From Opitutales bacterium (GTDB lineage: Bacteria; Verrucomicrobiota; Verrucomicrobiia; Opitutales; Opitutaceae): a stretch of 64,000 nucleotides of DNA. Below the pieces are notes generated by a model. It saw nothing but the letters and a program-made list of their open reading frames with translations, was not told the DNA's origin and ran no database searches. Below, one piece after another: positions 26,887 to 29,818 of the stretch. Within the stretch, counting starts at the first letter, position 1, and every line of letters begins with the position of its first letter. The stretch spans positions 1 to 64,000 of the forward strand of contig JABITN010000057.1 of the NCBI GenBank assembly GCA_018700525.1, in the 5' to 3' direction. A program made the translations under genes and the position numbers.

Positions 26887-27585
26887 TTGCTAGATTTGGC
26901 CTTTCCATCGAGCTGCGCGACTTGTGGTGGCTTGGTGGAAGAGTCGCCGTTGGGGCATGTTTGCGAGCGATGCTTCTCTAGGATTCATGTAGTTGAGGAC
27001 CCCCGATGCTTCACCTGTGGGTATCCGTTTTTTGGTGAAGCGGAATCGCATGGAGAGTGCCAGCATTGTTCGCGCTTAAGTCCGCAGTTTTCTCGAGGGT
27101 GGTCGGTGGCTTTATTTCGGGGACCGGTGCGCGACCTGATATATGCCTTGAAGTACAGCAATGCTTATTGGGCCGTAGACGATTTGGGTCGAATAGCGGA
27201 ATACGCGGAGGGATTGGGGGATTACCTGGTTGAGGCGATCTTAGTTCCGGTTCCTCTCCATCCGAGAAAGGAGCGTGAGCGTGGATACAATCAAAGCGCA
27301 TTGATCGCAGAGTCGATTGCGGGTCGATTCGAAGGGGTTCGATTGCGGTTTCTTCTGGAGCGGATTGTCGATACTCGCTCGCAAACGCAGTTCAATCGTC
27401 AGGAGCGCTATCGCAATTTGAGAAATGCCTTTTCTTTGGCCAAAAAAAGTGTCATAGACCCAAGCCAACGTTATATTATTGTTGATGATGTCTTTACAAC
27501 AGGTTCAACCCTTAATGCTTGTGCGGCTACGCTTCGCAAAGCGGGAGCGAAACGCGTAGACGTGTTGACCTTGGGTCACGGTTGA
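26887..27585 (+). CDS. comF: ComF-family phosphoribosyltransferase-like protein
   Basis: ComF homologue of 232 residues, linked to competence or DNA uptake in other bacteria. An N-terminal zinc ribbon has four CxxC pairs (CATC, CERC, CFTC, CQHC). The PRTase domain carries the PRPP-binding motif [14 protein letters not shown] near residues 197-210, preceded by the [17 protein letters not shown] block. The start is uncertain: the frame stays open upstream to 26833 with family-like residues ([16 protein letters not shown]), but contains no ATG, GTG or TTG before the TTG at 26887. The true start may be non-canonical or lost. Confidence 0.85.
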
Positions 27586-27622
27586 CTATCGATTAACAGT
27601 ACACTTAGCAAGGAGCCTTACG

Positions 27623-28483
27623 ATGCCGATTTTTCATAAGCCAAAGTATTCCACCGTTCAGGTGAAGAAAAAAGACATCCCACAGGGATTGTGGCAGAAA
27701 TGCCCTGCCTCAGGTGAGATCATTTATAATAAAGAACTGGAGCAGAATCAGAATGTCGTTCCAAAGAGCGGTTATCATTTTCCGATCGGGAGTCAAAAGC
27801 GGCTAGATTTTCTCTTAGATAGCGGATCTTGGGAAGAGTTTGATAAGGATTTGAAGCCGAATGACCCGTTGGGGTTCGTGGACACGAAGGCTTACAAGGA
27901 TCGTGTTTCGGGCTACCAAGCCAAGACGGGCATGAACGATTCGGTTATCGATGGCCTTGGAAAGATCCATGGAATTCCGATTTCGATTGCTGTAATGGAC
28001 TTCAAGTTTGGCGGTGGATCCTTGGGATCGGTTGCTGGCGAAAAGATCGCTCGAACGATTGAGAGGGCCTTGGAGATGAAGATACCGTGCATTATTGTTT
28101 CCTGCTCTGGTGGAGCCCGCATGCAAGAGGGGATTTTGAGCCTCATGCAAATGGCGAAAACGAGTGCGGCTTTAGCTAAGCTTTCAAAGGCGAAATTGCC
28201 GTTCATTTCAGTTTTGACCAATCCGACAACTGGCGGAGTAACTGCGAGTTATGCGGCTCTAGGCGACGTAATTATTTCTGAGCCAGGTGCTTTAATCGGT
28301 TTCGCCGGTCGACGCGTTATTAAGGAAACGACCAACGAGGATTTGCCGGAAGGCTTTCAGTCTGCGGAGTTTTTGCTAGAGGCTGGATTGATTGATATGG
28401 TCGTGGATCGCAGAGAGATGCGGGATAGTTTGCGTGATATTTTGTCCGCCCTCTATCTAGGTAAACAGCCCAAGACGGCGTAG
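27623..28483 (+). CDS. accD: Acetyl-CoA carboxylase carboxyltransferase beta subunit, zinc finger degenerate
   Basis: Beta subunit that, with AccA, transfers the carboxyl group from carboxybiotin to acetyl-CoA in fatty acid synthesis. The 286 residues have the crotonase-like fold with [28 protein letters not shown] and [13 protein letters not shown] blocks. The N-terminal zinc ribbon, CxxC-x15-CxxC in E. coli AccD, here reads CPAS and VPKS, so three of four cysteines are missing though the surrounding sequence is retained. An AAGGAG ribosome site lies eight bases upstream. It is followed 30 bases later by folC, the classic accD-folC order. Confidence 0.93.
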
Positions 28484-28513: not shown

Positions 28514-29818
28514 ATGAGTGGGGGACTTGCTACTTACGAGGAGGCTCGGGATTGGCTGTATTCTCTAAAGAACCAGGGTTCGACCTACGGGATTGAGCGG
28601 ATGGAGTTGTTTGCCGAGCGATTGGGGAATCCTCAGCAATCGTATCCCGTTATTCACATTGCGGGAACCAATGGCAAAGGCTCGACGGCCGCTATGCTTG
28701 AGTCGATCTTTCGAGCACACGGATTTAAGACGGGATTGTCGACCTCTCCTCATTTGGTGAGACAGGGCGAGCGCATCCAGGTTGATCGGAAGATATTGAG
28801 TGAAAATAAGATTCTCGAGTACACGCGAACTCTCAAGGCGGTAGGTGAGGAGATCGGACGAGCAACGCCGGCACTACATCCGAGTTTTTTCGAATTGATG
28901 ACAGGGATGGCTTTGTTGCGCTTTCAGGAGGAAGCGGTGGATGTGGCCATGGTCGAAGTGGGTCTTGGCGGTCGACTGGATGCGACGAACGTGGTGGACC
29001 CAGAGGTTTCCGTGATAACGTCTATTGGATTGGACCATTGCGAGATCCTTGGGGACACACATGAGAAAATTGCTCGGGAAAAGGGCGGCATCATAAAACC
29101 CGGTCGCCCAGTCGTCGTAGGCGTTTTGCCGGAGCAGGCAGAGGCAGTGATTCGCGAATTGTGCGATCAACGTGGTTGCGATCTCACTCGTATAGGCGAT
29201 CGCTACGGAGAGGGAATGGAACCCTATCCGGGGACCAATTTGGCTGGTGGCTATCAGAGCTTGAATGCGGCGATTGCACTGTCTGTGGTTGATCTTGTGC
29301 AGCAGCGGTTCAATCTCGATATCTCGCTTTGCCGGTCAGCATTAAAAGACGTGCACTGGCCAGGGCGGTGGGAGGTTTCCCAGTTAAAGCATCGCCAAAT
29401 TATTTTCGATGTATCCCACAATGCGGAAGGGGCTCTTTGGCTAGAGGATAGCTTATCCAAACTCGTGGCGAACGGGGCTCCAGCTCCTGATGTAGTTATG
29501 GGCGTTATGGGCCAATACCGGGCGAAGGCATTGATTCCAGTGGTGGCTCGCTATGCTCGTTCCATAACATTCGTAATGCCCGAGCAGTCGCGATCCGCTT
29601 CTTTCGATGAGTTGGAACGCTGGATTCCTGGATGTTTTTCAGGGCCTATGCATCGCGGGTCGATTGCGGAGTTGTTTCCGTCGAAAGGGATTTGCACCCT
29701 GGACGAGCCCAGCGATCATCCTATTCTAGTTACCGGTTCGATCTATTTAATCGGCGAAGTATGGGAGCGCTTCCTTGAGGATTCTCCCATAGGGCAGGGC
29801 GTTCTTCAGGATTTTTAA
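28514..29818 (+). CDS. folC: Folylpolyglutamate/dihydrofolate synthase
   Basis: ATP-dependent ligase of 434 residues that makes dihydrofolate and adds glutamates to folates. The P-loop GTNGKGST is near residue 51, the family block STSPHLVRQGERIQ follows, and the central ligase motif EVGLGGRLDATNVV lies near 147. A ribosome site-like AATGAGATG context precedes the start. It follows accD closely, and a terminator lies just downstream, before tRNA-Lys. Confidence 0.92.
   Translation: MSGGLATYEEARDWLYSLKNQGSTYGIERMELFAERLGNPQQSYPVIHIAGTNGKGSTAAMLESIFRAHGFKTGLSTSPHLVRQGERIQVDRKILSENKILEYTRTLKAVGEEIGRATPALHPSFFELMTGMALLRFQEEAVDVAMVEVGLGGRLDATNVVDPEVSVITSIGLDHCEILGDTHEKIAREKGGIIKPGRPVVVGVLPEQAEAVIRELCDQRGCDLTRIGDRYGEGMEPYPGTNLAGGYQSLNAAIALSVVDLVQQRFNLDISLCRSALKDVHWPGRWEVSQLKHRQIIFDVSHNAEGALWLEDSLSKLVANGAPAPDVVMGVMGQYRAKALIPVVARYARSITFVMPEQSRSASFDELERWIPGCFSGPMHRGSIAELFPSKGICTLDEPSDHPILVTGSIYLIGEVWERFLEDSPIGQGVLQDF

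Follow-up and report, generated by a model that had tools for sequence, protein, structure and literature searches.

Recurrent loss of the zinc-ligand cysteines of acetyl-CoA carboxylase AccD in a verrucomicrobial order and in Alphaproteobacteria

The accD gene at 27623..28483 (forward strand) of the window, the whole stretch of 64,000 nucleotides analysed, raises the question of whether an AccD with a single zinc cysteine is a real and working form of the protein. In an initial annotation, three of the four zinc-finger cysteines were said to be gone and the flanking sequence kept, and this was confirmed by gap-free alignment of residues 10-277 to Escherichia coli AccD (2f9y_B). Zinc-binding AccD is marked by four cysteines in two CxxC knuckles; E. 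coli cysteines 27, 30, 46 and 49 correspond to C, S, V and S in the window protein. The zinc-free ribbon (residues 24-54) lies at 27692..27784 (+), with CPAS as first knuckle (residues 27-30, 27701..27712, +) and VPKS as second (residues 46-49, 27758..27769, +), the codons at the four positions being TGC (27701-27703), TCA (27710-27712), GTT (27758-27760) and AGC (27767-27769). The Pfam zinc-ribbon model of AccD (PF17848, cut-off 24.5 bits) scored 21.2 bits in the protein scan and 24.9 bits in the genome scan. Sequencing error was rejected as the source of the loss, as G003 (95% identical) shows the same loss, and so do the other seven congeneric genomes in which the ribbon was read.

In other respects the gene was identified as that of the carboxyltransferase beta subunit of acetyl-CoA carboxylase. 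The 286-residue protein starts at an ATG with a likely ribosome binding site (AAGGAG, 27610..27615, +) seven bases 5' of it, and scored 396.1 bits with the NCBIfam accD equivalog TIGR00515 (cut-off 317.45) and 87.8 bits with PF01039 (cut-off 22.3; residues 60-241). The latter stretch falls in the catalytic carboxyltransferase domain, taken as residues 57-272 (27791..28438, +) for the selection comparison and as residues 57-278 for the tree. A canonical second AccD, on whose absence the initial annotation had made its reading depend, was searched for in the 96.5%-complete genome by a protein search at E<=10, and the window gene alone was found. One AccA partner was found to be encoded in the same genome (TIGR00513 match at G000:C180, 450.4 bits, above cut-off). 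Downstream of accD lies folC (28514..29818, +; TIGR01499, 319.3 bits, cut-off 162.65), an adjacency also present in the Sinorhizobium meliloti and Ruegeria records and absent from the Microvirga record. Upstream lies a comF-like gene (26887..27585, +; PF18912, 41.5 bits, cut-off 27) whose double zinc ribbon has four CxxC pairs intact, so the window genome has not abandoned zinc ribbons as such.

For the distribution of the loss, AccD sequences from relatives and from named genome contigs were assembled into a set of 266 rows after removal of protein duplicates, of matches that started beyond residue 17 or stopped short of 266, and of rows with an unaligned ligand position (L038, L046, L146, L210 and L217 among them); for one search of relatives, the low-scoring matches are those among the matches listed. 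At least three of the four zinc cysteines were missing in all 83 distinct AccD of the window's order. Four cysteines were present in 91 of 92 AccD of other Verrucomicrobiota, the exception (L188) having Thr at the second position, and in 21 of 21 from other groups. Loss of the zinc site itself is thus borne out by sequence across the sampled AccD of the order, where no canonical second copy was found. Position 27 is Cys in 62/83 order proteins and Asp in 21/83, and those 21 have none of the four cysteines. Position 30 (second ligand) is Ser or Thr in 83/83, position 46 (third ligand) is Val in 74/83 and otherwise Phe, Ala, Ile and others, and position 49 (fourth ligand) is Ser in 82/83.

Some single records stand apart. 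L188 (G342:C10:110-928), outside the order, has lost the second cysteine alone (CTCC), and the alphaproteobacterial L253 (G643:C45) has kept the third alone (STCS); either is a possible intermediate. In a member of the window's family (L146, G026:C54:31300-32400), AccD is in two pieces, with matches to residues 3-182 and 208-284, which may reflect a frameshift, an insertion or an assembly error. In two genomes of the order, G008 (85% complete) and G042 (0.9 Mb), AccA was found and no AccD match was obtained; both are outside the counts. Neither AccD above the cut-off nor AccA was found in G075 and G087 (same class, f23/g65), G012 and G020 (same family), or G051 and G195 (same order), and all that the accD model matched in these six genomes were PccB/MmdA-like carboxyltransferase frames 527-547 aa long. 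In g65, at least 15 genomes were without an AccD match. Where AccD and AccA are both lacking, the heteromeric carboxyltransferase has apparently been replaced, and this several times within the class.

Zinc-free forms were also found in Alphaproteobacteria. Seventy alphaproteobacterial AccD were read (the top 30 matches to a zinc-free query and a further 40 among the listed of 279 matches, from 289 genomes); 64/70 had four cysteines and 6/70, a proportion that is no frequency, were without three of the four (CTIS twice, CSVS, CSIS, STCS and CTSS). Position 30 is Ser or Thr, and position 49 Ser, in 6/6 of these. When Pseudomonadota genomes were scanned with a codon pattern written for the zinc-free first knuckle, 35/398 matched, against 2/398 for a reversed control pattern. 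Thirty of the 35 matches were read and 30/30 were AccD retaining one of the four cysteines at most; one of them, G587, is L231 of the earlier set. Among the five unread matches, that in G980 contains an in-frame stop and is probably due to chance, and the pattern overlooked two genomes (G487 and G667) that belong to its own sample and have zinc-free AccD. A distinct ribbon occurs in nine of the 30 (L377-L385): it is one residue shorter through a deletion, and its third and fourth ligand positions are taken by Thr and by Ala or Ser, respectively. Zinc-free AccD was found in S. meliloti (CP090106, pSymB; ribbon CPETGE...VIPQSG) and in Microvirga terrae; a plasmid-borne Ruegeria AccD has all four cysteines.

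The history of these forms was followed on a tree of the catalytic domain with the ribbon excluded (84 rows, 27 of them from the order), in which the window's own AccD is absent and is represented by its congeners L004 and L010; a FastTree tree includes it. Alphaproteobacteria and betaproteobacteria were placed together, apart from the rest (99/85). A single clade of the 27 order rows and the six alphaproteobacterial zinc-free rows, or a transfer between the two groups, was rejected (p-AU 7.7e-5), which argues for separate origins of zinc-free AccD in the order and in Alphaproteobacteria. Within the latter, at least four changes of the zinc-free label were forced by well-supported branches. 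The order's zinc-free rows form one side of a FastTree branch with support 44; on the catalytic-domain tree the order requires two changes, and its rows are separated from all others by a branch in 23% of the 200 bootstrap trees. One single loss inside the order is likely, with weak support from these trees. Loss is also the likelier direction, because a regain would need several cysteines to reappear at the correct places; counts of label changes alone do not separate the two. A similar change of the zinc ribbon thus appears to be recurrent and to have arisen separately in other bacteria.

Whether the altered ribbon still has a function was judged from its conservation. Among nine congeneric sequences, the uncorrected pN/pS was 0.023 for ribbon residues 24-54 (0.042 for residues 19-56) against 0.112 for residues 57-272; pS within the genus (0.73-0.76) is close to saturation, which bears on this contrast. 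Over the whole order, the ribbon residues P28, N42, V45 and H52 do not vary among the 83 AccD, and mean column entropy is 0.98 for the ribbon against 0.95 for the catalytic domain, so the ribbon is not the more conserved part at that depth; in four-cysteine Verrucomicrobiota it is the more variable (1.47 against 1.07). These values show purifying selection on the ribbon, with stronger constraint than on the catalytic domain within the genus. A ribbon that is decaying and functionless is hardly credible: the mixed residues at former ligand positions across the order (Cys or Asp at 27; Val, Phe, Ala, Ile and others at 46) would fit decay, but it is contradicted by a within-genus pN/pS about one-fifth of that of the catalytic domain and by the four residues invariant in 83 proteins. 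A hydrophobic residue at position 44, where the window has Asn, occurs in 69/83 order proteins and 6/6 alphaproteobacterial zinc-free forms, and in 2/91, 12/64 and 5/21 of the four-cysteine forms. In independent-pairs tests, co-change with zinc loss was not significant for hydrophobic 44 (median p 0.25) or for Lys37 (median p 0.625).

In the AlphaFold2 model of the window AccD, ribbon residues 21-50 have pLDDT block means of 82, 88 and 91 (fair to high confidence); a model of a four-cysteine control AccD has the same strands and ribbon blocks of 92-95, pLDDT being silent on metal. The window model was aligned to E. coli AccD 8uz2_D over 267 residues (Z 36.0, rmsd 2.1) and matched 2f9i_B with Z 36.4, so that the carboxyltransferase fold is predicted to be kept. 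A different interface, which had been offered in the initial annotation as one consequence of zinc loss, is not supported by sequence, in view of the four invariant residues, this model match and the presence of AccA.

The window protein is thus probably an ordinary, working AccD of the heteromeric acetyl-CoA carboxylase with a metal-independent N-terminal ribbon. Where E. coli AccD holds Zn(II), the knuckles here carry Ser or Thr at 30, mostly Val or Ile at 46 and Ser at 49; packing and hydrogen bonds would maintain the ribbon fold in place of zinc; and, with the structural job of the ribbon continuing, malonyl-CoA would be made without zinc in the AccD subunit. The absence of zinc, the retained activity and the packing mechanism in the order's AccD are what we infer from the patterns above, and zinc as a structural staple is the economical reading of them. 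Three points weigh against a working metal-free ribbon, namely the lower ribbon pLDDT (82-91 against 92-95), the lack of an order-wide conservation excess over the catalytic domain (0.98 against 0.95), and the statement in a review (PMC3896788) that E. coli AccD needs its zinc finger for activity, the finger also being reported there to bind the accA and accD mRNAs. Zinc dependence of AccD is likewise assumed in, for example, PMC7678824. The single zinc-free copies are conserved, however, and as conservation suggests they probably work; if so, the activity requirement for the zinc domain would not be general.

Two alternatives concern what the ribbon now does. Metal might still be bound by a different set of ligands, such as the residue at 27, His52 and side chains close by, given that Cys27 or Asp27 is found in 83/83 order proteins and His52 is invariant. 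This is improbable, as the former ligands 30, 46 and 49 are now Ser/Thr, mostly Val, and Ser, and no new fixed Cys or His position was found in the ribbon of the 83 order proteins; His52 is equally invariant in four-cysteine forms (91/91 and 64/64) and was therefore not recruited along with zinc loss. The other alternative, compatible with a working metal-free ribbon, is that nucleic-acid binding was lost together with zinc, AccD no longer autoregulating translation of AccA and AccD. Such a joint loss, also raised in the initial annotation, would fit the mRNA binding reported for E. coli, but some other function would then be needed to explain how strongly the ribbon is constrained, and it is regarded as rather unlikely.

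Two ribosomal proteins of the order were read beside AccD. At least two canonical ligands of bL36 were missing in 13/13 genomes of the order read (19 had matches), and bL31 had no cysteine in 8/9 read, the ninth (G042) having three cysteines without a CxxC pair; both proteins presumably resemble known zinc-independent forms. In L300-L323 the bL36 and bL31 genes of the order adjoin, and these apparently zinc-free types were the sole complete copies found; the window genome gave one further bL36 match, to a partial copy at the end of a contig. Outside the order, bL36 was of the zinc-free type in 5/21 Verrucomicrobiota, of the cysteine form in 15 and not read in one. The loss from AccD might then be part of a general zinc economy, in which several zinc ribbons were replaced under zinc scarcity, a reading compatible with a working metal-free ribbon. 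The bL36 (13/13) and bL31 (8/9) of the order fit such an economy, as do the six of six alphaproteobacterial genomes with zinc-free AccD in the 70-protein set that also have such a bL36. The type of bL36 is nevertheless no predictor of AccD: four of the five Verrucomicrobiota with zinc-free-type bL36 outside the order had their AccD read and each has four cysteines, alphaproteobacterial bL36 is of the zinc-free type in 20/20 read whatever the AccD (23/24 genomes had matches), and the comF-like neighbour retains its CxxC pairs. General zinc economy is a possible but rather doubtful driver, and apparently zinc-lean ribosomes accompany zinc-free AccD and do not predict it.

Judged by the sequence evidence, the presumed zinc-free AccD is a real form that is found throughout the sampled order, has arisen repeatedly and is under selection. 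No description of one was found in the titles or abstract beginnings of the open-access literature searched; protein databases may already treat the zinc site of AccD as optional. A broader reading, put forward tentatively and at slightly less than even odds, treats the zinc of AccD as a staple that can be replaced. In lineages with zinc-lean ribosomes, the ribbon would then have been rebuilt several times as a metal-free module that has Ser or Thr in place of the second ligand, in many cases a hydrophobic residue in place of the third and, as a rule, Ser in place of the fourth. Fatty acid synthesis would thereby have its first step uncoupled from the supply of zinc, and perhaps from autoregulation through mRNA as well. 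If a working zinc-free AccD is fixed across the order and in rhizobia, zinc is not part of AccD chemistry, models that assume zinc in AccD are not transferable to zinc-free lineages, and natural proteins would allow the proposed regulatory role of the zinc finger to be separated from catalysis; S. meliloti offers a tractable organism for zinc-free AccD.

Compared with E. coli AccD (PDB 2F9Y, 8UXZ, 8UZ2), the window protein is alike in ribbon length, predicted fold and AccA partner and differs in having one zinc cysteine instead of four. The AccD of S. meliloti (CP090106, pSymB), M. terrae and related alphaproteobacteria have likewise lost three of the four cysteines, with replacements like those of the order, but they differ from the order's AccD in their separate origin on the catalytic-domain tree, and some also in Thr and Ala or Ser at ligand positions and a one-residue deletion. 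Zinc-ribbon loss of this kind is already known for bacterial ribosomal proteins, among which, in PMC3087516 (which cites Makarova et al. 2001), disruption of the ribbon is described as recurrent and zinc-free (C-) S4, L31 and L36 similarly lose the cysteines and keep the protein. Some of those C- proteins occur as zinc and zinc-free paralogues, whereas the AccD described here is a single-copy catalytic subunit.
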